From: Gemmatimonadota bacterium
GTDB lineage: Bacteria; Gemmatimonadota; Gemmatimonadetes; Longimicrobiales; Gaopeijiaceae
Length of the DNA: 64,000 nucleotides
Reading direction: 5' to 3'
NCBI GenBank assembly: GCA_027623325.1
Contig: JAQBXY010000001.1
Coordinates: 131,511-195,510 of the forward strand
Numbering within the stretch: position 1 is the stretch's first letter; each line of letters starts with the position of its first letter. Below, one piece after another: positions 3,059-33,168 of the stretch. Both the position numbers and the translations under genes were made by a program. The notes under the pieces are model-generated. The model did not search any database. It was not told the origin of the DNA and saw only the letters and a list, made by a program, of their open reading frames with translations.

Positions 3059-3703
3059 TCAGACCATCGTCAGCAGCCGCGCTCCCGGCCCTGAGTCATA
3101 GTAGCCCCGGACGGCCGCCCGGAGTTCGTCGAGACGACCGGAGAAATAGTGGTCCGCGTCCGCGACACGCACGAGGGTCACATGCGAACCCAGTCGCGCC
3201 ACCGTTTCCGCCACCTGCTCTCCAGAGCCGAACTCATCGTCCTCACCTTGTACCACCAAAACGGGCTTCGTCGTACCGGCGAGGTATCCATAGTCGTACC
3301 GATCCTCCAGATCGACGGGTAGGCCAAGGCCCAGAAGCCCCACCACGCGGCCCTCTTCTGCCCCGACCGAGAGCGCCACCATCGACCCGAACGAGAAGCC
3401 ACCCGCGATCAAGGGCAGGTGTGGAAAACGGACCTCCAACCAATCGAGCGCGGCCCGCAGGTCGTCCTGCTCGCCCACTCCGTCGTCGTGACTTCCGGTA
3501 CTCGTCCCCACACCCCGGAAGTTGAAGCGGAGTGCCACCACCCCTGCATCGTTGAATGCCTGTGCGGCACGGTAGACCGCCTTGGTGTGCATCGTCCCAC
3601 CATGTAGTGGATGGGGATGACACACAACCGCCGCCGCTCGATGGGGGCCGACCGGTTCCTTGAGAACCGCTTCGAGATGACCATGCGATACCGGGATCCT
3701 CAT
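3059..3703 (-). CDS. Alpha/beta hydrolase (dienelactone-hydrolase-like)
   Basis: A 214-residue cytoplasmic hydrolase. It shows the oxyanion segment CHPHPLHGGTM, the nucleophile elbow GFSFGS (Ser in G-x-S-x-G, about residue 107), the acid VQGEDDEF and a C-terminal catalytic His in ADADHYFSGR. This resembles the YpfH/carboxylesterase group with the HPHP motif that is common next to lipid or polyketide genes. The substrate is unknown. I placed the start at ATG 3703 (MRIPVSHG), because the upstream in-frame residues look non-coding. It is the first gene of a minus-strand run and divergent from the gene at 3831, leaving about 127 bp for both promoters. Confidence 0.82.
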   Translation of the reverse strand: MRIPVSHGHLEAVLKEPVGPHRAAAVVCHPHPLHGGTMHTKAVYRAAQAFNDAGVVALRFNFRGVGTSTGSHDDGVGEQDDLRAALDWLEVRFPHLPLIAGGFSFGSMVALSVGAEEGRVVGLLGLGLPVDLEDRYDYGYLAGTTKPVLVVQGEDDEFGSGEQVAETVARLGSHVTLVRVADADHYFSGRLDELRAAVRGYYDSGPGARLLTMV

Positions 3704-3830
3704 TGGGTCGAACTCGGTGGTACGAGGGAAGCTCCCGTCAGACGCCAACTTACGCCGGTTCACCGCAGGGGAACGTACAGTTATCTTCAGCGGACGGTCG
3801 CGACCGGTCAAGACTCAAGGAGTAGCATCG

Positions 3831-4256
3831 ATGCACGCCTCCGAGGTGACCCCTGAAGCTGCCCGACGCGCAAACGAACTCTATTGGAGTTCCGAACGCA
3901 GCGTCAACCAGATCGCTGATGACCTCGACCTCTCGAAAGGGGCTCTGTACGGGGCTATCGAACCGCTCAGTGCCGAGGCCGATTGCCCCATGTGCGGAGA
4001 CGGGCTGGTCTGGCCGAACCGCACTGCGAAGGATCGCAATCGACTCGACTGCACCACGTGCGACTGGAGCGGAAGTGCGGACGAGACTACGGGTTACGTC
4101 TCTCTAGGAGTTTCGGAAGCGGACCTGGAGGGAGAGCTTCCGGCCCCTCCCCTGCCACCACGCAGCTTCGTAACCCGTCCAAACACGATCTTGGGAGGGG
4201 CGATCCTGGGTGCAGCAGTAGGATTGGCACTCGTCCTCTGGGCTCGGCGGAGATGA
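3831..4256 (+). CDS. HTH / zinc-ribbon protein with C-terminal membrane anchor
   Basis: A 141-residue protein with three recognisable parts. Residues about 5-45 form a homeodomain-like helix-turn-helix (ANELYWSSERSVNQIADDL, then LSKGALYGAIE). Residues about 50-82 hold a zinc ribbon with two Cys pairs (CPMC and CTTC). Residues about 118-138 form one membrane helix followed by RRR. A DNA-binding-like head tethered to the membrane is unusual, and I know no function for it. ATG 3831 is preceded by AGGAGTAGCATCG, a good ribosome binding site. The RDD-family gene follows 16 bp downstream, probably in the same transcript. Confidence 0.65.
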   Translation: MHASEVTPEAARRANELYWSSERSVNQIADDLDLSKGALYGAIEPLSAEADCPMCGDGLVWPNRTAKDRNRLDCTTCDWSGSADETTGYVSLGVSEADLEGELPAPPLPPRSFVTRPNTILGGAILGAAVGLALVLWARRR

Positions 4257-4272
4257 ACGGAGTCACCCGGTA

Positions 4273-5349
4273 ATGCCTCAAGGCACCCATCGTGACCCGC
4301 GGAGTATCGTCACGCCTGACGCGTTCGAGGTCTCGAGCGCCCTCATCGGAATGCCACTCGCGCCACCTCGACTCAGGTTCGTGGCTCTGATGATCGACGG
4401 CGTCGTGATCGGAGTCATCGCAGGGGTCACCAAGAGTTTTGCCCTCATCCTGGGGGTCGTCGCCGCTGTATGGTTCGTCCGAGCGGGGTTCAAGCGAACC
4501 CCCATTCGGGGGAGCGTCTTCAGTCGGGCGATGCGCCTCTCCGTGGGATGTCTAGGGGTGGTGATCGCTCTGATTACCGCGGCGACTTGGTCCGCTGTAG
4601 GCTTTGACTTCAGGGGCGGAGACGACGGGCCGTCCGATGACGAGATTCGGGTCGCGACCGGGGGTGCGGCCCAAGTCATCGAGGCCGTAGCGAGCGCACG
4701 CGCCCTTTCGGACCTGCAAGGGTCCGCGCCGCCCGTGGTGAACCCTTTGCCGAGTGATGCGCGAGCCGAGATCGACGCCTACACGCCGGAAGAGGCCTTG
4801 AACGCCTATGCTCGGCTTCTGAGGGACGACCCCGGCGACAGCTCCCAGATTGTTCTACGTGCCGCTCTCGCGGATCGCTTGCTCCCGGTCATTGCGGGTG
4901 ATTCCCTCAAGACGCTCGGGTCCACCGTCCGGTCCCTCCAGTTGGACCTCGCGGCGACTCAGGAGGCTTTGGACGATGTGAGTCGCGAGTTGGAGTCGGC
5001 GAGCGAGAGAAGCCTAATCGATCGGTTGCTGGGGTTCGTCGATGAGTTGGGATTTGGTTTCGGTTGGGCTGCGGTGTATCTGACTCTCTGTCTCTCGGGC
5101 TGGAAAGGTCAGACGGTCGGTAAGAAGCTCATGGGAATTCGGGTCGTTCGGTTGGATGGGGGGGCGATCACCTGGTGGATCGCTTTCGAACGGTCCGGAG
5201 GCTACGCAGCCGGGCTCGCGACAGGGCTTCTCGGCTTTGCACAGGTCTGGTGGGACGCGAATCGACAGGGCATTCATGACCGTATTGTCGGAACCGTGGT
5301 CGTAATGGACGGGGCGGAGCCCGTCACGGACTGGGAGACGGCCTTGTGA
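4273..5349 (+). CDS. RDD-family membrane protein with a large soluble insertion
   Basis: A 358-residue protein. The N-terminal part (MPLAPPRLRFVALMIDGVVIGVIAGV) has the RDD pattern R-x-x-A-x-x-x-D and two membrane helices. The middle, about residues 115-250, is soluble, helical and partly coiled-coil. The C-terminal part resumes the RDD fold with a helix, GQTVGKKLMGIRVVR, another helix, and the closing RQGIHDRIVGTVVV. So one RDD domain appears split by an insertion of about 140 residues. RDD proteins are poorly understood; some are linked to ion transport. It probably shares a transcript with ccdA downstream. Confidence 0.75.
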   Translation: MPQGTHRDPRSIVTPDAFEVSSALIGMPLAPPRLRFVALMIDGVVIGVIAGVTKSFALILGVVAAVWFVRAGFKRTPIRGSVFSRAMRLSVGCLGVVIALITAATWSAVGFDFRGGDDGPSDDEIRVATGGAAQVIEAVASARALSDLQGSAPPVVNPLPSDARAEIDAYTPEEALNAYARLLRDDPGDSSQIVLRAALADRLLPVIAGDSLKTLGSTVRSLQLDLAATQEALDDVSRELESASERSLIDRLLGFVDELGFGFGWAAVYLTLCLSGWKGQTVGKKLMGIRVVRLDGGAITWWIAFERSGGYAAGLATGLLGFAQVWWDANRQGIHDRIVGTVVVMDGAEPVTDWETAL

Positions 5350-5429
5350 GAGACGGCATCGAGAGCCTCGAGATCAACACGCCCCTCGGGGAGGAAGAAC
5401 AGCGCCTCCTGACCGACTTCAGCCCCTAG
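5346..5429 (+). CDS. Possible 27-residue ORF between the RDD and ccdA genes
   Basis: A GTG at 5346 overlaps the RDD stop codon in the GTGA arrangement used by several other gene pairs in this window. It opens a 27-residue acidic frame (ending LLTDFSP) that stops 7 bp before the ccdA start. The ribosome binding site of ccdA (AGGCGAA) lies directly after its stop. It could couple translation of the two flanking genes or be chance. I see no homologue and no membrane segment. Confidence 0.3.
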   Translation: MRDGIESLEINTPLGEEEQRLLTDFSP

Positions 5430-5436
5430 AGGCGAA

Positions 5437-6171
5437 ATGGACGTGCAGGTCTCGTTTCCGCTCGCGTTCGCCGCGGGCATCGTCTCCTTCCTGTCGCCGT
5501 GCGTACTGCCGGTTGTACCGAGCTATCTCGCGTTCATCTCAGGCCTCACCCTTGGCGAACTGACGGACGGGTCGACACCTGGGGTGCGTCGTAGGGCGGT
5601 GTTTCACTCCATTCTGTTCGTAGTCGGCTTCAGTCTTGTCTTCTTGACCATGGGCCTGGTGGGTACCGCGGTGGGCCCGGCCATAGCTCAGGCCCTCCCG
5701 TGGATCAGTCGTGCCGGAGGTGGGGTCATGATCGTCTTCGGCCTCTTTGTCGCGGGGGTGTGGGAGATTCCGAGACTGTCTGGCGAACTACGCCTGCACC
5801 TTGAGTCCCGTCCGGCCGGGGCCGTTGGGTCGCTCGTGGTCGGGATCGCGTTCGGAGCTGGCTGGACGCCCTGCATTGGACCGATTCTCGGATCGATCTT
5901 ACTCTACGCGAGTCTCGAGACGAGCGCGGCTCAGGGAATGATGCTCCTCGGGACCTATGCCTTAGGCCTCGGGATTCCGTTCGTGGCCGCTTCGGTGGGG
6001 TTCAACTGGTTTCTGGCGGGAAGTACGCACGCCAGGGCATGGATCCTGCCGCTCCAGCGGGTAGCTGGAACACTATTGGTAATTATTGGTCTCTTGATGA
6101 TCACTGGGCGTTTCGTTGATTTGACCGCTTTCCTGGCCGGGCTGGGTCAGCTCATAAACCTGGATTTTTGA
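5437..6171 (+). CDS. ccdA: Cytochrome c biogenesis / thiol-disulfide transporter CcdA
   Basis: A 244-residue inner-membrane protein with six predicted helices. It moves reducing equivalents from cytoplasmic thioredoxin to periplasmic acceptors. The key cysteines are present: SFLSPCVLPVVPSY in helix 1 and GWTPCIGPILGS in helix 4. The pseudo-symmetric halves and length match the short CcdA family rather than full-length DsbD. The stop codon overlaps the start of a DsbA-like lipoprotein (TGATG), strongly suggesting translational coupling and that this neighbour is one of its electron acceptors or partners. Confidence 0.93.
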   Translation: MDVQVSFPLAFAAGIVSFLSPCVLPVVPSYLAFISGLTLGELTDGSTPGVRRRAVFHSILFVVGFSLVFLTMGLVGTAVGPAIAQALPWISRAGGGVMIVFGLFVAGVWEIPRLSGELRLHLESRPAGAVGSLVVGIAFGAGWTPCIGPILGSILLYASLETSAAQGMMLLGTYALGLGIPFVAASVGFNWFLAGSTHARAWILPLQRVAGTLLVIIGLLMITGRFVDLTAFLAGLGQLINLDF

Positions 6172-6917
6172 TGAACCCGAGATTCTCGACCTTTGCCGCG
6201 ATGTCGTGCCTGCTCGTCGCGGTCGCGTGTACGGCCGACGCCCCCGCCCCTGGCACGAGTGACCTGACTCGAAGCCTCCTCGCCCAGCCGGCGGGTGACG
6301 GGATGTCGACGCCGTTGGCTGCGATTCCGTCGGTAGGTGAGGCAGTGCCCGATGTCCCGGTGGAGGAGATCGGCTTCAATCGCGGCAGGATCGAAGCACC
6401 CGTGAAAGTGATCGAGATGTCGGACTACGGGTGCGGCTACTGCCGCCAGTTCCATCAGGAGACGTTCCCGACGCTTCTTACGCAGTTTATCGATGCCGGC
6501 TTGGTGGAGTGGAAGTTCGTTCCGTATATCACCGGCATGTTTGACAACTCACTCGCCGCGACCGAGGCCGCTGAGTGCACCTACGTACAGAGTGCAGCAG
6601 CCTTCGAGCGGCTCAACGCCCGGCTTTGGGACGATCAGTCCGTCTGGAAGGGTGCCGATGCGCCCGCGCCGGTGGTGCGTGCCTGGGCCGCAGAACTCGG
6701 GATCGACATGATGGCGTTCGATGCTTGTCTCGAGTCCGACAGTCAAATCAACCGTATCGCATCGTCCACGGCCCTTGCGAGGGAGATCGGAGTTCGCGGC
6801 ACGCCAACCTTCATCGTAATCGGATATCCGCCCCTTCAGGGTGCTCTGCCGTTGGCGGTCTTTCAGGACGTTCTCACGAGGGTCTACGCAGCAACGACGG
6901 GCGAGCCCGGGTTGTAG
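6171..6917 (+). CDS. DsbA-family thiol oxidoreductase lipoprotein
   Basis: A 248-residue predicted lipoprotein: the signal peptide ends at a lipobox (LVAVAC) near residue 20. The thioredoxin-fold active site CGYC (in SDYGCGYCRQFHQETFP) and the cis-proline loop RGTPTFIV are present. There is a DsbA-type helical insertion between them with a further Cys pair (AAECTY... DACLES). It would reduce, oxidise or isomerise disulfides on the periplasmic face of the membrane. ATG 6171 overlaps the ccdA stop; a TTG at 6168 is the alternative. Pairing with ccdA suggests it is kept reduced. Confidence 0.87.
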   Translation: MNPRFSTFAAMSCLLVAVACTADAPAPGTSDLTRSLLAQPAGDGMSTPLAAIPSVGEAVPDVPVEEIGFNRGRIEAPVKVIEMSDYGCGYCRQFHQETFPTLLTQFIDAGLVEWKFVPYITGMFDNSLAATEAAECTYVQSAAAFERLNARLWDDQSVWKGADAPAPVVRAWAAELGIDMMAFDACLESDSQINRIASSTALAREIGVRGTPTFIVIGYPPLQGALPLAVFQDVLTRVYAATTGEPGL

Positions 6918-6927
6918 GTGTGAGCGG

Positions 6928-7824
6928 ATGAGTTCAAGGTCGGTCCGGGTGTCGCGGCCGGTGAGAGGACTCTTCCTTGCAGGGGGTGCGGTGGTTCTCG
7001 CGTGCGCGCCTGTCGCGTTCGCTGGACCCGATTGTCGTAGCCTACCGCCGAGCATCGCCCTGCCGGCGGAACTCGATGAGTCGAGCGGACTGACCTTTGG
7101 CCTCCGCGAATCAGACGTCCTGTGGACGCACAACGACGACGGATCTCGCCTGTTCGCAATCGACGTGCGGGGTTCCGTCCTGGCGGCCTTCAATATCAGG
7201 CCCAGGCTCCAGGATTGGGAGGATATCGCGGCGGGATCCTGCCTGGAATCCGAGAGTTGCCTCTATTTGGCGGACACCGGCGACAATGGTGAGCGTCGTG
7301 CTGACGGCGACATTCGGCTGATTCGGATCACGGAACCGACGGTTGAAGAGGACGGAGGTACGATCGAGGGGCAAGTCTTCCCGATGCGTCTGCCCCAGGG
7401 CGCGCGTGATGTTGAGGCCGTGTTCGTGTTGCCCGGGGAACGCCTGCATCTCATTACGAAGGGACGAACTCATGCGATTACCGTGTACCGGTATCCGCCC
7501 CCTTTACGTGCGGACACCGTGGAGTTGGAGGAGGTCCAGCGTCTGAGCCTAGGCGCCGCGGGACTGGGCGACCAGGTGACGGGGGCTTCCTCGTCATCCG
7601 ACGGGCGTCGCGTCGCGGTGCGAACGTATCAGTCGCTCGAGTTTTTTGACGTTGTCGCGGACACGCTTGCCCGGGTCGAAGGCGGGGTCGTGAATCTCAG
7701 GACGCTTCGGGAAAGTCAGGGCGAGGCGGTCGCGATCGGCCCCGATGGGCTGGTCGTGTTGAGCTCGGAAGGGGGTCCCTTCGGCGGGGCGCCCGGTATG
7801 AACGTTCTCCGCTGCGGTATATAA
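6928..7824 (+). CDS. Secreted beta-propeller-like protein
   Basis: A 298-residue exported protein with a signal peptide (GLFLAGGAVVLACAPVAFA, cleavage near residue 32). The mature part has repeated beta-strand units resembling an esterase-like or phytase-like propeller: ESSGLTFGLRESDVLWTHNDDG, LYLADTGDNGERR, and RDVEAVFVLPGERLHLITKG. WTHNDDG and ADTGDN are motifs of a family often annotated as an esterase-like or integral-membrane-associated propeller without a proven reaction. A Cys pair (GSCLESESC) may form a disulfide, consistent with the CcdA/DsbA-like genes 10 bp upstream. Confidence 0.6.
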   Translation: MSSRSVRVSRPVRGLFLAGGAVVLACAPVAFAGPDCRSLPPSIALPAELDESSGLTFGLRESDVLWTHNDDGSRLFAIDVRGSVLAAFNIRPRLQDWEDIAAGSCLESESCLYLADTGDNGERRADGDIRLIRITEPTVEEDGGTIEGQVFPMRLPQGARDVEAVFVLPGERLHLITKGRTHAITVYRYPPPLRADTVELEEVQRLSLGAAGLGDQVTGASSSSDGRRVAVRTYQSLEFFDVVADTLARVEGGVVNLRTLRESQGEAVAIGPDGLVVLSSEGGPFGGAPGMNVLRCGI

Positions 7825-7925
7825 ACCACCGAAAACAGAACGGCAATTCTAGATCGAGTGGGGCCGGTCCTTCCACAGGCGTAACCAGCAATATGCAAAA
7901 TAAGGGTTAATGATGGAGGGTGGAC

Positions 7926-8396
7926 GTGAACTCTGATGGCCCGACGATCTATGTCGACGCGGACTCCTGTCCCGTCAAAGAGGAGACGTACCGCGTAGCA
8001 AAGCGATACGACCTCCGGGTGATCCTCGTCGCGGCACAGTGGCTTCGGATCCCGACGGAGCCCTGGCTCGAGATCCAGGTCGTCAAAGAGGACGGGCAGC
8101 TCGACGCTGCGGACGATTGGATTGCCGAACGGGCCGGCGAAGGCGACATCGTAATCACTCAGGACATCAGTCTTGCCTCCCGTTGCCTCGAGAGCTCCGC
8201 GAGGGTCATCGGTCCGCGCGGGGTACCCTTTACGCCTGAGTCGATCGGTGAGGCGCTCGCCGGACGCGAGTTGATGGCCAACCTCCGCGAGATGGGTGAG
8301 ATTTCGGGTGGCTCAGCACCTTTCGGGAAGCGCGACCGGTCCAACTTCCTACAGGCTCTGGACCAGGCGGTTCAAGCGATTCGGCGGGGACGCTAG
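7926..8396 (+). CDS. YaiI/YqxD family (DUF188) protein
   Basis: A 156-residue cytoplasmic protein. The family signature is clear: IYVDADSCPVKEE at the start, then a PIN-like core with VITQDISLASRCLE and GPRGVPFT. The C-terminal GKRDRSNFLQALD is also characteristic. The reaction is unknown; the fold suggests a nuclease-like NYN/PIN domain. I chose GTG 7926 because GGAGGG sits 5 bp upstream; GTG 7920 would overlap that site. About 100 bp separate it from the propeller gene, so it may have its own promoter. Confidence 0.9.
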   Translation: MNSDGPTIYVDADSCPVKEETYRVAKRYDLRVILVAAQWLRIPTEPWLEIQVVKEDGQLDAADDWIAERAGEGDIVITQDISLASRCLESSARVIGPRGVPFTPESIGEALAGRELMANLREMGEISGGSAPFGKRDRSNFLQALDQAVQAIRRGR

Positions 8397-8436
8397 CAGC
8401 CGCGGGCGCCTCGGGACCTCACTGGTGTGGCGGGGC

Positions 8437-9456
8437 CTACGCCAGGATTTCTCCCAGGCGACCCGCCGCGTCCTCCGGCAACTGCCGGTCTCGGAAATAC
8501 AGGCCGACCGTCCCTGTTGTGTCCTCTACGGTCGCGAGATCGAGGAAGCGCAACAAATAGCGGATGTCCGCCGTGGCATCGGGACCCCGATCAACATCGA
8601 GCGCCGCCACCTTCATGGCGAGGACGTATTCGGGCCGCGCTTCGTAGACCTTGAGATGCGTGGTGTCGAGGTAGGGGGCCGTGGCCGGCTGGCTCCGCCC
8701 AACGAGGAATTGCCGCACCGAGGCGTTGAGCCAGTCGGGCGCAGCCCCGAGCCGCGCAGCTACCGTCGCCGCCGCGTCAACGCACCTAGCGGAGCTGGCG
8801 AAGAGCGCACGGACGCGTCGGGTCTGGGCGTTTGCATTGAATGCGACAACCATCACGGCACCCCCGACCAAGCACAGTTCGACCTCGACGCCGCGTCTCG
8901 CGAGTTCGGCATTGAGCGCCCGGAACGTCTCGGGAACGTGCTCTTCCCCGGGGGTCGTGGCCGAGGGTCCCTCGGAAGGGGCAGTGGGAGCGACAAAGAT
9001 GTGGCGGCGCTTGAAGGCCACCGGGCTGACGCGCATCAAGTGGGGTCTGAGGCTTCGCAGTTCCCAGCCGAAGTAGGGACGGTCGAGGGTGGGGACCGTG
9101 GCTACCCAAGGGGGGACTGCTGCACCCAGGCCATAGGCAGCCCGCTCGACGGAGGCTGCCACGTGGTTCTGGACGAGTGGGGTCACTTCGTCGAAGGGTG
9201 CGTCGGCGACGGCTGTTGGAAAGTCGTCGGGGGACAGAACGGAAAGAAACGACTCCAACTGGATGAGGGCTGCACGCCGATCAAGCGCATCGGCCACAGC
9301 CGCGACACGGCGGTGAAATTCTAGGCGATGTGACGGTAGGACCGACGAGAGAACGAAGTCCGAAAGCGAACGGCCCGCCTGTTGGGCAAGGCGCTTTAGG
9401 GCCGCTTTTTGAGCCGAGGTAACACGGATCTGGAGTTGGCTTGTCTTGGCGCCCAT
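8437..9456 (-). CDS. Ribbon-helix-helix (DUF1778-like) domain fused to a degenerate nucleotidyltransferase
   Basis: A 339-residue protein of two parts. Residues about 5-45 (QLQIRVTSAQKAALKRLAQQ, then SLSDFVL) match the DNA-binding half of DUF1778/TacA-type antitoxins. Residues about 175-335 resemble DUF6036/AbiEii-like nucleotidyltransferases: VELCLVGGAVMVVAF, then KVYEARPEYVLAMKVAA and DIRYLL. In place of the usual metal-binding DxD after the GG motif the protein reads RRVRALF, so catalysis is doubtful. A perfect 10-bp inverted repeat lies 28-50 bp upstream of the start (9485-9506), a natural operator for the N-terminal domain. It may be an autoregulated remnant or derivative of a toxin-antitoxin module. 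Confidence 0.65.
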   Translation of the reverse strand: MGAKTSQLQIRVTSAQKAALKRLAQQAGRSLSDFVLSSVLPSHRLEFHRRVAAVADALDRRAALIQLESFLSVLSPDDFPTAVADAPFDEVTPLVQNHVAASVERAAYGLGAAVPPWVATVPTLDRPYFGWELRSLRPHLMRVSPVAFKRRHIFVAPTAPSEGPSATTPGEEHVPETFRALNAELARRGVEVELCLVGGAVMVVAFNANAQTRRVRALFASSARCVDAAATVAARLGAAPDWLNASVRQFLVGRSQPATAPYLDTTHLKVYEARPEYVLAMKVAALDVDRGPDATADIRYLLRFLDLATVEDTTGTVGLYFRDRQLPEDAAGRLGEILA

Positions 9457-9484
9457 CCTCAAGGGTGGCAACGAAATAGCAGAA

Positions 9485-9506
9485 CGTCAATACGGGCGTA
9501 TTGACG
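9485..9506 (-). promoter_or_regulatory. Perfect palindrome, candidate operator of the RHH fusion gene
   Basis: The sequence CGTCAATACG, two bases GG, then CGTATTGACG is a perfect 10-bp inverted repeat. Read on the minus strand, its second half supplies TTGACG, a good -35 element, so a bound repressor would block polymerase. It lies 28-50 bp before the ATG of the gene at 8437-9456, whose N-terminal ribbon-helix-helix domain would be expected to bind such a site. Confidence 0.6.
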
Positions 9507-9642
9507 GTACGCGGAGAGACTTGAGAAGGGAGGACCGGGCACTCAAGGCGCCTCGAGGGGGCGCGGCGAGGCATCTCGCGCCGTTGGGTCCAATCGTGCA
9601 TCTTCGCACCATGAGCACACAGCACTTCGTCGCCGAACGCCG

Positions 9643-10569
9643 GTGACCACATTCGTCAGGTTCGGCGGGCTTCTCTTCGGGCTCGGGGGGATCGCCTGGA
9701 TTCTGGCCCTTTCCTTCCAAGAAGACGTCTTGGAAGCCGCCGGGCCGCGGATATTCATGGAACCGGAGATCACCTGGAGCCCGGAGAGTCCTCACGAGGG
9801 AAGGCTCTTTCGGCTGCGGCTCACGGCTTCTTTTCACACGCCGATCATGGGGCTCCGGGGTGAGGTCGCGGGTGAGGAACTGCATTTCGAGGGGCTCAGC
9901 GAGGGCGTCTTTGAGAGCCTGGCCGCGATTCCTGTGGGGTCGGACAGCGTAGTAGCTGCCGTCGTTCGCGTCGCATACTCGGCCGGTGGCGAAGCGGTCG
10001 TCGAGGCCCGCATCCCCGTGACTCCGGGCACGTATAGCCATGAGCAGCTCACGGTGACACCTAGGTTCGGAGCGCCGCCCAATGCGGCGGATCAGGAACA
10101 ACTTCGGCAGGACCAGGAGAAGGCGCGCGCGGCCGCCCGGGTGGCTCATCGGACCCCCCGAATGTGGTCGGATGAGGTGGTCATGCCTCGAGCGAGCCGA
10201 GTTACGAGCGGATTCGGCGACGGGCGGGAGTTCAATGGACAGGTTTCGAGCCGACACTTGGGCCTGGACCTCCAGGGGGCGCAAGGCGATACCGTAGTGG
10301 CGGCCATGCGTGGGGTTGTGGTGCTGGTCGAGCCCTTTCTCCTGGCCGGCAACATCGTCTACGTGAATCACGGCGGGGGGGTGCTCAGTGCCTACTTCCA
10401 CCTGAGCCGGCAGCTGGTTCAGGTCGGGGACTCCGTAGATGCGGGCACGCCCGTTGGTCTGATCGGAGCTACGGGGCGCGTGACCGGCCCTCATTTGCAC
10501 TGGGTGGTGCGGTACGGAATGACTAGCGTCGATCCGCGAAGCCTCCTGGACGTCGTCGAGCCTCGCTGA
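9643..10569 (+). CDS. Membrane-anchored or exported M23 metallopeptidase
   Basis: A 308-residue protein with an N-terminal hydrophobic segment (GGLLFGLGGIAWILALSF). A beta-rich immunoglobulin-like region (about residues 35-135) and a short charged linker follow. The C-terminal LytM/M23 domain has the zinc ligands H-x3-D in SRHLGLDLQG and H-x-H in GPHLHW, plus a tyrosine-histidine motif AYFHLSR. It should cleave peptidoglycan cross-bridges in the periplasm. The start is GTG 9643, which overlaps the end of an 11-codon frame beginning at ATG 9611. That mini-frame could be a leader, but it may be chance. Confidence 0.85.
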   Translation: MTTFVRFGGLLFGLGGIAWILALSFQEDVLEAAGPRIFMEPEITWSPESPHEGRLFRLRLTASFHTPIMGLRGEVAGEELHFEGLSEGVFESLAAIPVGSDSVVAAVVRVAYSAGGEAVVEARIPVTPGTYSHEQLTVTPRFGAPPNAADQEQLRQDQEKARAAARVAHRTPRMWSDEVVMPRASRVTSGFGDGREFNGQVSSRHLGLDLQGAQGDTVVAAMRGVVVLVEPFLLAGNIVYVNHGGGVLSAYFHLSRQLVQVGDSVDAGTPVGLIGATGRVTGPHLHWVVRYGMTSVDPRSLLDVVEPR

Positions 10570-10580
10570 ACCAAAGGTGG

Positions 10581-10614
10581 TTGACAGAGCGGGAGGGTGA
10601 TGCTAGTAGTTGCA
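10581..10614 (+). promoter_or_regulatory. Promoter and operator-like motif of the MarR gene
   Basis: TTGACA at 10581-10586 is a consensus -35 box. After 17 bp comes TAGTAG (10604-10609), a weak -10. The 9-mer GTAGTTGCA at 10606-10614 overlaps the -10 and recurs upstream of arsM at 11143. No good ribosome binding site precedes the MarR start, and the predicted transcription start falls close to ATG 10616, so the transcript may be leaderless. Confidence 0.55.
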
Positions 10615-10615
10615 C

Positions 10616-11104
10616 ATGACAACTATGGCTGAGTCCACCTTGTTGGTCGATGCTCGGGCCCTCGCCGATGCCCTGTCGGAGCTGATTCGGGTCGTCCAGT
10701 TTCGCGACCGGGATCGCGCCTGCTGTTACGACATCAGCGTCAGCCAGTGTTATGCCCTCAAGGGCGTCGTCGATGCCGGGGCTCTCACGATCAACGACCT
10801 CGCCGCGCATCTGTACTTGGACAAGAGCACGGCGAGCAGAGTGGCGAATGCTCTGGTGGACAAGGCGCTCCTGGTGCGGCAGGCCGACGAGGCCGACGGG
10901 CGCGTCGTTCGACTGACCGCCACGGCCGCCGGTACGGCCGTGTGCACACGGATCGAGTCGGATCTGGCGGGCGAATACGCCGAGTTGCTCGGCGACTTCG
11001 AGCCGGAGGTCCGGGCCGCGATCACTCGGGTCGTCACCCGACTGGGTAGGTCGTTCGCGGCCCGGGTCGACGCGTCTGGAGGAAGTTGCTGTGTGGTGGG
11101 GTGA
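10616..11104 (+). CDS. MarR-family regulator with cysteine-rich motifs, probably arsenic-responsive
   Basis: A 162-residue winged-helix protein. LTINDLAAHLYLDKSTASRVANALVDKALLVR is the recognition region, and RQADEADGRVVRLTATAAG is the MarR wing. Two cysteine clusters stand out: DRACCYDISVSQC near residue 40 and GGSCCV at the very C terminus. Both are plausible thiol ligands for As(III), though this is inference. It lies 71 bp upstream of an arsenite methyltransferase, and both genes share the GTAGTTGCA motif in front. So it probably represses both, in place of the more usual ArsR. ATG 10625 is an alternative start. Confidence 0.82.
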   Translation: MTTMAESTLLVDARALADALSELIRVVQFRDRDRACCYDISVSQCYALKGVVDAGALTINDLAAHLYLDKSTASRVANALVDKALLVRQADEADGRVVRLTATAAGTAVCTRIESDLAGEYAELLGDFEPEVRAAITRVVTRLGRSFAARVDASGGSCCVVG

Positions 11105-27142: not shown

Positions 27143-27874
27143 CTACGACAACCTTCGAGCAATCCAGATCGTTCGATAGATGGCCGTCCCCACCGTGCCC
27201 ACGGCCACGATCGCCAGGAGCGCGATCAACACCGTGCCGGCGTCCCAACCTCGCCATGCCGTTACCGCGGGATCGAGAATGCCTCCAAACCCCACGAGCA
27301 ACAGACGTTCGGCGCGCTGCATAACTCCCACCTTGCACACGACGCCCAGGCTCTCCCCCCGGGCCCGAGCGTAGCTCACGAGAAGCGATCCCCCCAACGC
27401 CGTGACAACGAGCACGAGGTGGAACGACGACTCGCGAAATAACACCGCGAGCCCCACGAACGCCCCGACCTCTGCAAACCGGTCCAACGTCGAATCGAGG
27501 AAGGCGCCCATCTGATTGGCCTGGCCGCGGGCCCGTGCCACCCTTCCGTCGAGGATGTCCGCGACGCCACCCATGAGTACGCACCATCCGCCCAGGTTCA
27601 CATGTCCGCTGGCGAAGAGGACACCTCCCGCGATCCCGAAGGCCACACCGAGAAGATTGAAGGCGGTGGGGGATATCCCCATGGCCAACGCCGCTCGTTC
27701 CACGGGCCAGATGAACCAGTAGAACCAACCTCGGACGAACGCGCCGAGGACGAAGGTTCCTCGATCTGTGATCTCGTTGGCATCGTGCCGGGAACGCGCA
27801 ACGCCTCCGTACACGGGCATGGATATCAGCGCGACCGCGAGGATCCCCATCAGAACTGTCATATCCGTTCTCAT
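27143..27874 (-). CDS. CDP-alcohol phosphatidyltransferase
   Basis: A 243-residue integral membrane enzyme. The signature D-x2-D-G-x2-A-R-x8-G-x3-D-x3-D is complete in ADILDGRVARARGQANQMGA followed by FLDSTLDR. Several membrane helices flank it. It swaps the CMP of a CDP-linked lipid (usually CDP-diacylglycerol) for an alcohol, making a phospholipid such as phosphatidylglycerophosphate or phosphatidylinositol-phosphate; the alcohol cannot be told from sequence. ATG 27874 overlaps the stop of the Tam41-like gene by 4 bp. Together with the upstream acyltransferase this makes a compact phospholipid operon. Confidence 0.9.
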   Translation of the reverse strand: MRTDMTVLMGILAVALISMPVYGGVARSRHDANEITDRGTFVLGAFVRGWFYWFIWPVERAALAMGISPTAFNLLGVAFGIAGGVLFASGHVNLGGWCVLMGGVADILDGRVARARGQANQMGAFLDSTLDRFAEVGAFVGLAVLFRESSFHLVLVVTALGGSLLVSYARARGESLGVVCKVGVMQRAERLLLVGFGGILDPAVTAWRGWDAGTVLIALLAIVAVGTVGTAIYRTIWIARRLS

Positions 27875-28848
27875 GAGTCGATCTCCCGTCGGGGTCGACT
27901 GAGAAGCACGTGGATCACGCGAGGCCAGAGGAAGATTAGCGGGATGCTTCTTTCGAGAGGCGTAAGTTCGATGGTCCGCCCAGTATGACGCTCGACTTTC
28001 CGCACCACGTAGGGCAGCCAGTTGGCGAAGGTGATCATGTGCTTGAACCATCGAGTGGTCGTTCGGGCCTTCGATCGCCGAAAATGTCGTGCCCATCGCC
28101 TCCGTTGAGTCGGGGGAACCGGACCACGAAGCGAATAGAGCGGTCCCTGGCGGGTCATTGCTCCCGATTCGACCGCCGCCTCGAGCGCAGGTGCGAGGGC
28201 TACCGCAAAGTGGTCGGCTTGCGCCTCGAAGACTCGACCTGCCCGGTCACGCGACTCCGGACGAATCTCCCCTTGGTAACAAACCTCGAGGAGCCGACGC
28301 CCAAGGCCTTCCGCATCCACAGGCCCCTGGAGATAAGGGGCCATCCATTCCAGGACTCGCCGATGCGCTCCGGACACTTGCTCCTCCAACCAAGCCTCCA
28401 CGGATGCGTCGGCGATCCACACGATGCCGAGTTTCTGCACCATGCGGCCGAGTAGGAAATGATCGGGCGGGTGCGAACCCAGGCCGCGCTCGAAGTCACC
28501 TTCACTAACTACGAGGCACTTGGCGACCCCGTCGCGCCCATCGTTCGGGGCGAATGCCAGAACATTCGGGGCGAGCGTGCGGGACAGCGCCACCAACAGG
28601 CCTAAGGGTCGGTGAAGTTCGCCGGCTGCGCTAAGCGCCGAGAGGAACCGACGATTGTCATTCACGATGACAACGAGGTCGAAGGCGCTATGGGAGTCGG
28701 GATTGGTGGCCAGCAGGCGAGATCCGTACAACAGGATCGCACGGATGCTCCCTCCACCGCCTTCGACGAGACGCTCGGCCAGCGAGCTGGCCCCGGGCCA
28801 CTCCCGAGTCCTGGAAACCGTCAAGCGAGGTCCGTCCCGGCGCGGCAC
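27871..28848 (-). CDS. Tam41-like nucleotidyltransferase, candidate CDP-diacylglycerol synthase
   Basis: A 325-residue soluble or peripheral protein. An N-terminal nucleotidyltransferase core is suggested by AILLYGSRLLA, then SAFDLVVIVND. About 65 residues on come LAPNVLAFAPNDG, KCLVVSEGDFERGL and HFLLGRMVQKLGIVW. This order resembles the mitochondrial CDP-DAG synthase Tam41 (YGSG...DF.F.V, then a KYGV.S region and the GRLQKPV motif). The metal-binding pair is not certain: only one Asp (FDLVV) is obvious. It lies between PlsC (28-bp overlap) and the CDP-alcohol phosphatidyltransferase (4-bp overlap), just where a CDP-DAG synthase is needed. The assignment is an inference from motif and context. 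Confidence 0.6.
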   Translation of the reverse strand: MPRRDGPRLTVSRTREWPGASSLAERLVEGGGGSIRAILLYGSRLLATNPDSHSAFDLVVIVNDNRRFLSALSAAGELHRPLGLLVALSRTLAPNVLAFAPNDGRDGVAKCLVVSEGDFERGLGSHPPDHFLLGRMVQKLGIVWIADASVEAWLEEQVSGAHRRVLEWMAPYLQGPVDAEGLGRRLLEVCYQGEIRPESRDRAGRVFEAQADHFAVALAPALEAAVESGAMTRQGPLYSLRGPVPPTQRRRWARHFRRSKARTTTRWFKHMITFANWLPYVVRKVERHTGRTIELTPLERSIPLIFLWPRVIHVLLSRPRREIDS

Positions 28849-29609
28849 GCCGCGAGGCCGGCGATCATCATCTCACGGGCCTCCTCGATGAACGCCCTCG
28901 GATCGTCTCCAGGGCTTGTCCATTCAAGCGTGCCGACATGAGCGACGCGTCCTTCCACGTGTTCCATACCGTTCAAGAAGTCCTTGAACTTCGCCACCTG
29001 CCAGAAGCCATCGGCCACAAAGACGTAGACGGTCCACCTTCGCTCGGCGAGCAGGCGTCGGATTCCCGCCGATTTGAACCGGCCGATCCTACCGTCCTTC
29101 GTCCGAGTGCCCTCAGGAAAGAGGGCTAAAGGGACGTCCGAGTCACGGCCCGCAGCGCCCAACGAATCGATGCTCTCCCGAAGCTCCTCGGGGTTTGCAG
29201 TGGGATCGACCACCGGGTATTGATAGAGCCTGACCATGTGCGAGATTAGCGGGATGAAGCGACTATAGCGCGCACGAGTGACGATGCGTGGGTAGCCGTC
29301 CGCAACAGTTTGAACGACCAGTGGGATATCAAAAACCGACTGGTGGTTCATGAGGATGAGGACACCGGGTCGCGTGGGCACCACCGGCCGGGGCAAGGGA
29401 ATCGAGGCCCCTCCGATTCGAACGAGGGGTCTGGTGGTGATCCACGCCATGAACTTGATCCACCGGGCGAGCACCGGGATGCGCCGATTGGGTCTAAATC
29501 TCACCCAGGGCGCGATCACGATTCGCTGGACGATATCGCATACGATCAGCGCAATGAATACCGTGATGAGGGCCAGGGATCCTCGGAGCTTCAACGCGTG
29601 CCTCTCCAC
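28821..29609 (-). CDS. 1-acyl-sn-glycerol-3-phosphate acyltransferase (PlsC family)
   Basis: A 262-residue membrane-associated acyltransferase that converts lysophosphatidic acid to phosphatidic acid. Motif I, NHQSVFDIP (H-x4-D), and motif III, LFPEGTRTKDGR, are both intact, with an N-terminal hydrophobic helix (SLALITVFIALIVCDIV) and a likely acyl-binding region between. It is the first gene of a three-gene minus-strand operon with the Tam41-like protein and the CDP-alcohol phosphatidyltransferase. Its product, phosphatidic acid, is the substrate a CDP-DAG synthase would use. The promoter lies in the 89-bp gap shared with the divergent gene at 29699. Confidence 0.9.
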   Translation of the reverse strand: MERHALKLRGSLALITVFIALIVCDIVQRIVIAPWVRFRPNRRIPVLARWIKFMAWITTRPLVRIGGASIPLPRPVVPTRPGVLILMNHQSVFDIPLVVQTVADGYPRIVTRARYSRFIPLISHMVRLYQYPVVDPTANPEELRESIDSLGAAGRDSDVPLALFPEGTRTKDGRIGRFKSAGIRRLLAERRWTVYVFVADGFWQVAKFKDFLNGMEHVEGRVAHVGTLEWTSPGDDPRAFIEEAREMMIAGLAACRAGTDLA

Positions 29610-29698
29610 CGTTCCAAGTTACGACACATCCAATCAATGATAGTACGGGGACGGGAAGGCTAACCCGACCCGCCGACAATCACCACGACAAGTTGACC

Positions 29699-30370
29699 AT
29701 GAGCTCTTCCGACTACACCTACTACGGCTACGATCTCTGCATCGGTGGCTACTTCGAAATGCCGACCTCGGACGCGCGAAAGCTGCTTCCGAGCCATCTC
29801 GAGCCTCTCGAGGTGCAGCACGAGCGGAGCATTCTCGCGATTACCGCCTTCCATTTTTCGGAGAGTATGGTCGGGGAGTACGACGAAGTCGTGCTTGCCG
29901 TGGTCGTGCCACCGATCGTCGAGCCAGGAAAGGCACTCCCGAAGGCCGCGTTCTTCCCGTTCATGGTGGGAACCTCTACTCCGGAATCGCGGGCCCATGC
30001 GATTGAGCGTTGGCGGCTGCCGCACTACATGAAGGACGTCGACATCGACTTCGCGGAGGAGGATGGCCAAGTCACGGTCACGGTTACGGACGCCGGCGCT
30101 CCGGTACTCGAATTGGTCGTTACTGAGTTCGAGCGGAAGGCCGCCGCCAACAACTACACATGCTTCACAGTGGATCCCGAGGCTCGGTACAAGGTCAATA
30201 TTCTCATGGAGGCTAGCCACACCGAGCATGAGGAGGAGTCCGGTTCGCTCACGCTACACGAGCATGCGATGACGGCAGGTCTCACGATTGATGAGGTGAA
30301 CAGCTACCCCTTTCGTGAGGAGTGGTACCAGAAGGGCCTCCAGACCTTCGATCCGATGGAATCGTTCTGA
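29699..30370 (+). CDS. Acetoacetate-decarboxylase-fold protein, function unknown
   Basis: A 223-residue soluble protein. The N-terminal layout (YDLCIGGYFEMPTSDARKLLP, then SILAITAFHF and a hydrophobic strand VVLAVVVPPIV) resembles the cone-shaped fold of acetoacetate decarboxylase-like proteins. No catalytic lysine can be assigned, so the true reaction is unknown. ATG 29699 begins MSSSDYTYYGYDL; a TTG at 29693 is the alternative. Its 3' end overlaps the longest reading of the lipid kinase downstream, so the two are probably coupled. Confidence 0.5.
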   Translation: MSSSDYTYYGYDLCIGGYFEMPTSDARKLLPSHLEPLEVQHERSILAITAFHFSESMVGEYDEVVLAVVVPPIVEPGKALPKAAFFPFMVGTSTPESRAHAIERWRLPHYMKDVDIDFAEEDGQVTVTVTDAGAPVLELVVTEFERKAAANNYTCFTVDPEARYKVNILMEASHTEHEEESGSLTLHEHAMTAGLTIDEVNSYPFREEWYQKGLQTFDPMESF

Positions 30371-31308
30371 CCCCGCGGCATTTCGTCGTATTTAACCCCG
30401 CCTCGGGTCGAGGTCGGGGAGCACGCCGGATCGCGCTCTACACGCGACTACTCCGCCAGGCCATCGAAGACGTCACCTTCGGAGTCACCACCGGACCGGG
30501 TGAGGAGGCGCAGTTGGCCGACCGGGCCATTGCCGAGGGATACGACGTCATCGTAGCGGTCGGCGGCGATGGAACCTGGAGCAATGTGGCCGACCGGATC
30601 GTCGCAAGTGGGCGACGGGAGATCGCGCTAGCCATCCTGCCGAGTGGCACGGGCAACGACTTCGGGCGGAATTTCGGTTTCGACCCCAAGAGCCCGGAGG
30701 AGGTGGTGGGGGTGCTCGCGGACGGACACACACAGTTCGTCGACGTGGGCTTCGTGGAGACGCCCAGCGCGTCGGAGCACACTCCCGAGCGCATGGAGAC
30801 GCGGCACTTCCTCAACCTCATCGGTTTCGGCTTTGACATCGCGGTTATCGACGCAGCGGCCAGCGCGCGATTCTTGAGGGGCGAACTTTTATACAAGGTC
30901 ACCGCACTTCAACAGCTCTTTCGGTTCCCGGGGATCGGGGTCGACCTCGCATCCGGCATGGGAGAGAAGCGGCGCTCACACCAGTTGATGCTGACCGTGT
31001 CGAACGGGCGGTACTTCGGTGGAGGGTTCCCGATTGCGCCGGCGGCCACCGTGGAGGACGGGCAGTTGCACGCATGCATGATTGCCGATGCCTCGCCACT
31101 GACCCGATTGAAGCTTTTTAATCTGGCGGAGCGTGGGCGACACGTATCCTCGGACCGGGTCGAGATCATCAATGACTCGAGCTTTCGCCTGACTTTCGCC
31201 GAACCACCCCGCTTCGAGGTAGATGGTGACGTCCGCCGATCGTCCGACGCCACGATTGATGTCCGAGTCCTTCCCGAGGCTCTGCGCGTGGTGGCCCCGC
31301 GCCCTTGA
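30322..31308 (+). CDS. Diacylglycerol/lipid kinase, DagK/YegS family
   Basis: A lipid kinase of about 312-328 residues. The nucleotide-binding motifs are classical: VFNPASGRG near the start, VAVGGDGTWSNVA (GGDGT), and LPSGTGNDFGRN. The C-terminal beta-sandwich includes NGRYFGGGFPIAP and the final FEVDGD. It would phosphorylate diacylglycerol or a related lipid to phosphatidic acid at the membrane. The start is unclear: GTG 30322 lies inside the previous gene by 49 bp, and a CTG at 30367 overlapping the previous stop (CTGA) is a plausible alternative. Confidence 0.88.
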   Translation: MVPEGPPDLRSDGIVLTPRHFVVFNPASGRGRGARRIALYTRLLRQAIEDVTFGVTTGPGEEAQLADRAIAEGYDVIVAVGGDGTWSNVADRIVASGRREIALAILPSGTGNDFGRNFGFDPKSPEEVVGVLADGHTQFVDVGFVETPSASEHTPERMETRHFLNLIGFGFDIAVIDAAASARFLRGELLYKVTALQQLFRFPGIGVDLASGMGEKRRSHQLMLTVSNGRYFGGGFPIAPAATVEDGQLHACMIADASPLTRLKLFNLAERGRHVSSDRVEIINDSSFRLTFAEPPRFEVDGDVRRSSDATIDVRVLPEALRVVAPRP

Positions 31309-31398: not shown

Positions 31399-31455
31399 GC
31401 GCTACCGGCCTGACGTACGATGGGCCCATCTGTTTTCACCCCGGCATACGAAGCC

Positions 31456-32073
31456 ATGAACCTGCCAGCGAGAGAGCTCTCACCAGGTGGACCGGCGCCC
31501 ATAGCGCTTCATGACCGCGCCATGGACAACCTTCGATACATCCGGGAAACCATGGAGAAGTCAGCGTCGTTCACGCACGTGTCCGGAATCGGTGGCGTCG
31601 GCATGGGCCTCGTCGCGCTTATCGCCTCTGGGGTGGCATCCCAGTCCGAGTCGGCGGCTACGTGGCTCGGTACATGGTTTGCCGCCGCGGTCATCTCAGC
31701 GACCATCGCCATCTACACGATGGCGAGGAAATCCCGGGCGCAGGGCGCTTCCTTGCTCACAGGTCCGGGACGCAAATTCACCTGGAGCGTGATTCCGCCG
31801 CTCGCTGCAGGCGCGGCGTTGACATTGGCGCTCGTCCAGATCGAGTCGTACGACCTCCTGCCGGGAATGTGGCTACTCCTCTACGGGACGAGCGTCGTCA
31901 CAGGCGGCTCGCACTCGGTTCGGCCCATCCCTGTCATGGGCGGGACATTCATGCTCTCCGGTGTGGCGGCTCTGCTGGCACCGTCGGTCTGGGGTGACGC
32001 ATTCATGGCGCTTGGCTTCGGAGGCTTGCACATCGTCTTCGGTATCCTGATTTGGAGAAAACATGGCGGGTAA
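31456..32073 (+). CDS. Predicted multi-pass membrane protein
   Basis: A 205-residue protein. A polar leader (about residues 1-35, with DNLRYIRETMEKSASFTHVSG) is followed by about five or six membrane helices and short loops, ending with RKHGG. I do not recognise a functional family; similar proteins occur next to winged-helix regulators in Gemmatimonadota and Acidobacteria, to the best of my knowledge. ATG 31456 is one of three possible starts (31420 and 31522 also open the frame). Its end overlaps the start of the winged-helix gene by 11 bp, so they are translationally coupled. Confidence 0.6.
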   Translation: MNLPARELSPGGPAPIALHDRAMDNLRYIRETMEKSASFTHVSGIGGVGMGLVALIASGVASQSESAATWLGTWFAAAVISATIAIYTMARKSRAQGASLLTGPGRKFTWSVIPPLAAGAALTLALVQIESYDLLPGMWLLLYGTSVVTGGSHSVRPIPVMGGTFMLSGVAALLAPSVWGDAFMALGFGGLHIVFGILIWRKHGG

Positions 32074-32473
32074 ACAGAGCGCGCTGCGACGCGAAGTGAA
32101 TTCTGAGGCGAAAGCGCGCCCTTCGCTCGACACCGTCACCGGTCGGCTGCCCGAGCCCGACGCACTGGAACTCGATCGCCTGATTCACGAGCGCGTCCGG
32201 CTCGGCATCGTAAGCTCGCTCGCCGTTAATGGGTCTCTCTCGTTCACCGACCTGCGGGACCTGCTGGGAATCACCGACGGAAACTTGAGCGCACACGCTC
32301 GACGCCTAGAGCAAGCCGGATACGTCGTGTGTACAAAGCTGTATGAGGGCCGCACACAAAAGACCGAATACGGACTGACCCCAAGGGGTCGAACCGAGCT
32401 CAACGCGTACCTTGATCACATGGAAGCGATCATCCAGGCGACGCGCCCCGAGGGTGGTCCGTCAACGTCATGA
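32063..32473 (+). CDS. Winged-helix transcriptional regulator (HTH_27 / ArsR-MarR-like)
   Basis: A 136-residue regulator. IVSSLAVNGSLSFTDLRDLL is the start of the DNA-binding domain, ITDGNLSAHARRLEQAGYV is the recognition helix, and TEYGLTPRGRTELNAYLDHM is the wing and dimer helix. There are no obvious metal-binding Cys clusters. It lies between a membrane protein and uppS, with 11-bp and 4-bp overlaps, so all three are one operon. The perfect palindrome in the promoter at 31382-31398 is a good candidate for its binding site. The signal is unknown. Confidence 0.82.
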   Translation: MAGKQSALRREVNSEAKARPSLDTVTGRLPEPDALELDRLIHERVRLGIVSSLAVNGSLSFTDLRDLLGITDGNLSAHARRLEQAGYVVCTKLYEGRTQKTEYGLTPRGRTELNAYLDHMEAIIQATRPEGGPSTS

Positions 32474-33168
32474 CGGGAATCCACGTGGCCGTCATCATGG
32501 ACGGCAATGGGCGCTGGGCCACGGCGCGAAGCCGGCCACGCGAGTGGGGCCACCGACGTGGTGCGGAGGCGGTACGTAGAATCGTCACCGCGGCACCGGA
32601 CCTGGGTATCCGCACGCTCACCCTGTACGCGTTCTCCTCCGACAATTGGCAGCGGCCGGCGACCGAGGTGTCCGTCCTCATGCGACTGTTCAGCCGCTAC
32701 CTGCGCTCCGAGGCAGCGGAACTGAAGGAGAGCGGAGTACGACTCCAGGTGGTCGGCCGCCGTGATCGTCTGGCCCCGGGCCTGGTCCGAGATGTCGAAC
32801 GGGCAGAGAGGGAGACCGTCGGTGGCGAGCGACTCCTGCTTCGGTTAGCGGTCGACTATTCGAGTCGAGACTTGCTCTTGAGGGCAGTTCAGGCGGCGGC
32901 CGGGGCCTCAGATTTGGAGCGGCAGGACATGGCGTCACTTCTGGGTCGAGCCATGCACGGCGAAGGACCTGCTCCGGACGTGGATCTCTTGATCCGTACG
33001 GGTGGGGAGCGACGCTTGAGCGACTTCCTCCTTTGGGAATGCGCCTATGCTGAACTGCTATTCACGCCCGTCATGTGGCCGGACTACTCTGCCGAGCATC
33101 TGGCCGATGCGATCCGAGATTTCCGATCGCGCGATCGACGCTTCGGGAACGTCGCAGCGGCGTCCTAG
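32470..33168 (+). CDS. uppS: Isoprenyl (undecaprenyl) diphosphate synthase
   Basis: A 232-residue cis-prenyltransferase. The hallmark motifs are intact: VAVIMDGNGRWA at the start, LTLYAFSSDNWQRP, and DLLIRTGGERRLSDFLLWECAYAELLFTPVMWPDY, in which the metal/phosphate and isopentenyl-binding residues are conserved. It elongates farnesyl diphosphate to the undecaprenyl carrier used for peptidoglycan and other envelope polymers. The start overlaps the upstream regulator stop (ATGA). It is unusual for uppS to share an operon with a winged-helix regulator rather than with cdsA or rseP. Its last 4 bp overlap the convergent ada gene. Confidence 0.92.
   Translation: MTGIHVAVIMDGNGRWATARSRPREWGHRRGAEAVRRIVTAAPDLGIRTLTLYAFSSDNWQRPATEVSVLMRLFSRYLRSEAAELKESGVRLQVVGRRDRLAPGLVRDVERAERETVGGERLLLRLAVDYSSRDLLLRAVQAAAGASDLERQDMASLLGRAMHGEGPAPDVDLLIRTGGERRLSDFLLWECAYAELLFTPVMWPDYSAEHLADAIRDFRSRDRRFGNVAAAS

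Follow-up and report, generated by a model that had tools for sequence, protein, structure and literature searches.

We found that the middle gene of a compact lipid operon in a member of Gemmatimonadota encodes a divergent protein of the Tam41 type, which is nearly always paired with a predicted inositol-phosphate (PIPS)-type CDP-alcohol phosphatidyltransferase and is co-inherited with a gene for an SPT-like enzyme. The reading that we favor, tentatively and with somewhat less than even confidence, is that the Tam41-like enzyme makes a private CDP-lipid, from which its PIPS-type partner makes an inositol-phosphate lipid, most plausibly on a sphingoid backbone. In the 64,000-nucleotide stretch of DNA that was analyzed (here, the window), the operon consists of three genes on the minus strand (29609 to 27143) that overlap one another, as originally predicted, and is flanked by two divergently oriented genes.

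28821..29609, minus strand: PlsC-like acyltransferase, 262 aa, first gene of the operon (Pfam Acyltransferase, PF01553, 3.1e-12)
27871..28824, minus strand: Tam41-like nucleotidyltransferase, 317 aa from a TTG at 28824 (Foldseek, Pfam match of the homolog L035, active-site columns, TTGA overlap)
27143..27874, minus strand: CDP-alcohol phosphatidyltransferase, predicted inositol-phosphate (PIPS/AIPS) type, 243 aa from an ATG at 27874 (NCBIfam, PDB matches, motif)
29693..30370, plus strand: acetoacetate-decarboxylase-like (ADC-like) protein, divergent from the operon (PF06314, 2e-05, below the cut-off)
30322..31308, plus strand: YegS/DAGK-family lipid kinase, overlapping the ADC-like gene (PF00781, 2.4e-27; YegS_C, 8.4e-26)

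The translation of the first gene displays the motifs NHQSVFD (HX4D) and FPEGTR, and it is one of four places in the genome at which PF01553 is found. The open reading frame of the middle gene reaches to a GTG at 28848 (325 aa); the TTG at 28824, which overlaps the PlsC stop codon as TTGA, is the more likely start. The start of the CDP-alcohol gene is the ATG at 27874, which overlaps the stop codon of the Tam41-like gene as ATGA, and not the limit of its open reading frame at 28096. Such 4-nt overlaps are seen in most relatives. Promoter and terminator scans recovered nothing above chance. Downstream of the lipid kinase (window positions 31420 to 33168) lie genes for a 217-aa protein without a Pfam match, a small HTH-like regulator, and undecaprenyl diphosphate synthase, in an order conserved in many relatives.

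The original prediction likened the middle protein to Tam41 on the basis of a series of motifs, all of which are present in the 325-aa translation (YGSR, residues 41 to 44; FDLVVIV, 56 to 62; KCLVVSEGDF, 110 to 119; GRMVQKL, 134 to 140). Sequence profile searches bear out this relationship at the level of the family and not for the window protein by itself. Searched alone against Pfam, the window protein has no match to Tam41 (PF09139) at E ≤ 1 and recovers Polbeta and Adenyl_transf with weak E values; no NCBIfam model matched it, and a PF09139 search of its own genome gave 0 matches, the search controls containing no known Tam41. Among the 40 homologs used to build a family profile and alignment, 15 match Pfam Tam41_Mmp37 at E ≤ 1, and one member, L035 (41% identical to the window protein), exceeds the curated cut-off (27.6 bits against 24) with a match spanning residues 23 to 220. 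The family profile likewise recovered SpTam41 of S. pombe from the PDB (profile positions 14 to 220), with a marginal E value of 0.05.

An AlphaFold model of the protein (pLDDT 87; pTM 0.86) has a predicted nucleotidyltransferase fold, and the top five PDB matches recovered with it in Foldseek are all Tam41 structures, including 6ig2/6ig4. The best of these is the bacterial FbTam41-CTP-Mg complex (7ecd; E = 3e-07; TM 0.57/0.67, the latter by target). Nine alignment columns are common to the family, SpTam41, and FbTam41, namely, G42, S43, D57, K110, R135, E/D194, R196, E198, and R/K202. Position 55, where the usual D-x-D pair has its first Asp, is Ala in 40/40 members and is also nonacidic in SpTam41 and FbTam41; a single characteristic acidic residue is a trait of Tam41, according to PMC11646218. 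The protein has neither a PF01148 match nor a transmembrane-like window, and the net charge of its last 86 residues is +15, as would be expected for contact with a membrane. That it is instead some generic Pol-beta nucleotidyltransferase that modifies aminoglycosides or proteins and lies in a lipid operon by chance would accord with the Polbeta and Adenyl_transf matches of the single-sequence search. We disfavor this reading as very improbable: the Tam41 structures score TM 0.55 to 0.67 by target and the next matches, aminoglycoside nucleotidyltransferases, 0.35 or less, and the gene order with the lipid genes is conserved across families in the phylum. Thus, the homology is distant, but profile, fold, and active-site residues together lead us to conclude that the middle gene encodes a divergent Tam41-type protein.

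The same prediction placed this protein at the step where CdsA would normally act and proposed a search of the genome for another cdsA. That search recovered a CdsA encoded elsewhere in the genome, and CdsA was found in 53/53 good-quality genomes of the family; the idea that the Tam41-like protein stands in for a missing CdsA was accordingly rejected. As PgsA and PssA are also encoded, the operon is accessory to the housekeeping phospholipid route, and the Tam41-like enzyme, rather than taking the place of CdsA, probably supplies an activated lipid dedicated to a special membrane lipid.

The third gene contains the motif DX2DGX2AR-X8-GX3DX3D, and its NCBIfam matches are to archaetidylinositol-phosphate synthase (3e-36) and PIP synthase (5e-29), both below the curated cut-offs; the pgsA and pssA profiles score ~4e-05, more than 75 bits under the AIPS/PIPS profiles. 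Its closest solved relatives are PIP synthases (best PDB match, 6h53 PIPS, 1.5e-17). By its sequence, therefore, it is predicted to be a CDP-alcohol enzyme of the inositol-phosphate type, with profile scores below curated cut-offs. We distinguish this window-type gene (class A) from a second PIPS-type enzyme of the phylum (class B). The Tam41-like gene was recovered in 49/298 genomes of the phylum as full-length matches of 34 to 63% identity (3 further matches are short and weak). Class A also occurs in 49/298 genomes, 48 of them shared with the Tam41-like gene, with one genome having each alone, both at contig edges; wherever the contig continues, the class A gene always adjoins the Tam41-like gene. 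In contrast, most other genomes have class B without any Tam41-like gene. This difference suggests that class A needs a different CDP-lipid donor. In 34 of the 49 Tam41-like-positive genomes, including that of the window, class A is the sole PIPS-type match (at E 1e-12), yet these genomes retain MIPS. On the simplest reading, class A is the inositol-phosphate lipid synthase of these genomes and receives its CDP-lipid from the Tam41-like protein. MIPS itself is found in 278/298 genomes, so its co-occurrence with the Tam41-like gene is uninformative by itself. A MIPS gene adjoins the class B gene at several loci (G117:C311, G100:C18, G275:C138, and G224:C85). Together with the wide occurrence of MIPS, this linkage suggests that inositol lipids may be widespread in the phylum.

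The Tam41-like protein would thus act as a soluble, peripherally membrane-bound CTP:lipid-phosphate cytidylyltransferase, and the adjacent PIPS-type transferase would attach inositol-1-phosphate to its private CDP-lipid, yielding an inositol-phosphate lipid distinct from the PG and PE made via CdsA. We infer CTP as the donor, a lipid phosphate as the acceptor, and inositol-1-phosphate as the head group from the families to which the two proteins belong. An arrangement in which the nucleotidyltransferase activates a soluble head group (e.g., as CDP-inositol) that the CDP-alcohol enzyme transfers to DAG or ceramide has parallels in the proposal made for an alternative inositol cluster of B. vulgatus (PMC9246714) and in Caulobacter CpgD, which forms CDP-glycerate for a phosphosphingolipid and has IMPCT as its top structural match (PMC12275187). 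However, these precedent enzymes resemble sugar-phosphate or phosphocholine cytidylyltransferases and not Tam41, the fold and active site of the protein studied here are Tam41-like, its basic C terminus fits membrane contact, and a PIPS-type partner uses a CDP-lipid. We therefore regard this arrangement as improbable.

A closer rival, somewhat less probable in our estimate than the favored reading, is that the Tam41-like protein serves as an additional synthase of CDP-DAG. In that case, PlsC would make PA, from which CDP-DAG and, by the PIPS-type enzyme, phosphatidylinositol phosphate would follow, the SPT module using PI as a head-group donor or being merely co-inherited. PMC11646218 describes the characterized Tam41s, the bacterial one included, as producing CDP-DAG; the operon begins with PlsC; and in Bacteroides PI-DAG precedes inositol ceramide (PMC9246714). 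The first two of these points keep a PA backbone in play. On the other side, every good-quality genome of the family already has CdsA as a source of CDP-DAG, and class B enzymes manage without a Tam41-like partner, which class A enzymes do not.

A sphingoid backbone is suggested by the genomic context. In sister genera, a DAGK-ADC-SPT set is divergent from PlsC-Tam41-PIPS, with the SPT-like gene (encoding an alpha-oxoamine synthase) flanked by PlsC and the ADC-like gene. The window's genome carries its SPT-like gene on a different contig (C26), followed by an ADC-like paralog 39% identical to that of the window. The best PDB matches of the SPT-like protein are SPTs (3a2b, 3e-86), and in NCBIfam it scores 368.3 bits with bioF and 368.1 bits with SPT, both below cut-off. 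Among the 298 genomes, 46 have both the Tam41-like gene and an SPT-like gene (counted above 500 bits), 3 the former alone, 11 the latter alone, and 238 neither; the Fisher statistics for this co-occurrence ignore phylogeny, and adjacent genes can go in one deletion. The association also holds where the two genes are unlinked, as in about half of the positive genomes, the window's included. In one genus of 18 genomes, both genes are patchy, with 5 genomes having both and 1 having SPT alone. The case for a sphingoid backbone is thus a genomic one, drawn from adjacency and co-inheritance, and the genomes with one gene alone indicate that the two are not strictly interdependent. The SPT-ADC-DAGK trio stays together in genomes that have no Tam41-like gene. 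At one such locus (L127 of G027, 3285 to 10695), it is flanked by genes for a UDP-sugar dehydrogenase, a DegT aminotransferase, a GFO/IDH oxidoreductase, and a hexapeptide transferase, suggestive of a head-group module of another kind (sugar). The ADC-like protein (L083:8498-9163; window:29693-30370) consistently accompanies the SPT-like gene and the lipid kinase, in a gene order conserved in relatives. The lipid operon of the original prediction is upheld; the SPT-like link had gone unnoticed there, as had the fact that the third gene is of the inositol-phosphate type.

In its most specific form, the favored reading would run as follows: an SPT-like enzyme provides a long-chain base; a YegS/DAGK-type kinase phosphorylates it; PlsC acylates the phosphorylated base, in parallel to the conversion of LPA to PA; the Tam41-like enzyme cytidylylates the resulting ceramide-1-phosphate, possibly giving CDP-ceramide; and the head group is then added by the PIPS-type enzyme. 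It is conjecture on our part that the acceptor is ceramide-1-phosphate, that PlsC serves as its acyltransferase, and that a YegS-type kinase is its source. For the lipid kinase there is a precedent in Caulobacter CpgB, which acts on ceramide (PMC12275187). A ceramide synthase and a ketosphinganine reductase were not identified. That a Tam41-family enzyme converts ceramide-1-phosphate to CDP-ceramide, which a PIPS-type transferase turns into inositol-phosphate ceramide, we offer only as a possibility toward the speculative end. A literature search, with subscription papers outside its scope, found no paper for the term CDP-ceramide.

The original prediction also held a Tam41-type synthase to be rare or undescribed in bacteria. 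This is too strong for Tam41 itself, as a bacterial Tam41 from a Firmicutes bacterium was already known and solved as 7ecd (Kimura et al. 2022, cited by PMC11646218). We found no description of this divergent branch, of its almost obligatory association with a PIPS-type enzyme, of its inheritance together with SPT-like genes, or of its restriction to Gemmatimonadota in these searches, which comprised a scan of genome contigs and a search of the phylum, with other phyla sampled only by two peptide patterns. The contig scan, made with a narrower alignment, gave 36 loci, all titled as Gemmatimonadota or its lower groups. The family adds a clearly separate bacterial branch of Tam41, with ties to sphingolipid-type genes and to one specific partner enzyme. 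Should a sphingoid phosphate prove to be the substrate, bacterial sphingolipids would have a new means of head-group attachment, and a fold familiar from the synthesis of cardiolipin in mitochondria would have a new specificity; with CDP-ceramide as the intermediate, a bacterial sphingolipid route would copy the PA, CDP-DAG, and PIP logic of glycerolipids. If it is PA, this bacterium would be one of the rare cases in which two unrelated CDP-DAG synthases coexist, each for a separate lipid.

Compared with known systems, the family shares with Tam41/Mmp37 the overall fold, including the C-terminal domain, the one-Asp active site with its K/R/D-E/R/E residues, the motif order, and the lack of a transmembrane segment. 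It differs in that structural alignments give 11 to 16% identity, H/R/Q takes the place of the third Gly of GSG, an invariant D129-H130 is new, GRxxQ is found and AGRxxKP is not, and the C terminus is longer and strongly basic; moreover, it is tied to PIPS-type and SPT-like genes and was found here only in Gemmatimonadota. CdsA (PF01148) would yield a CDP-lipid of the same kind but has an unrelated multipass membrane fold and is a separate gene in the same genome. The third gene resembles PIP synthases (mycobacterial and Renibacterium PIPS; Bacteroides BT_1523) in type and in its CDP-alcohol motif, but it falls below the NCBIfam cut-offs and, unlike the class B enzymes of the phylum, is tied to a Tam41-like partner. 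The Bacteroides inositol-sphingolipid cluster BT_1522-1526 likewise combines an inositol-type CDP-alcohol enzyme, MIPS, and SPT in one organism; there, a Tam41-like gene is not described, and ceramide receives its head group from PI-DAG (PIP-DAG to PI-DAG to PI-dihydroceramide; PMC9246714). Finally, the Caulobacter ceramide phosphoglycerate system (CpgA-D) also links a lipid kinase and a cytidylyltransferase to sphingolipid genes, but its cytidylyltransferase, CpgD, has an IMPCT-like fold and activates soluble phosphoglycerate.
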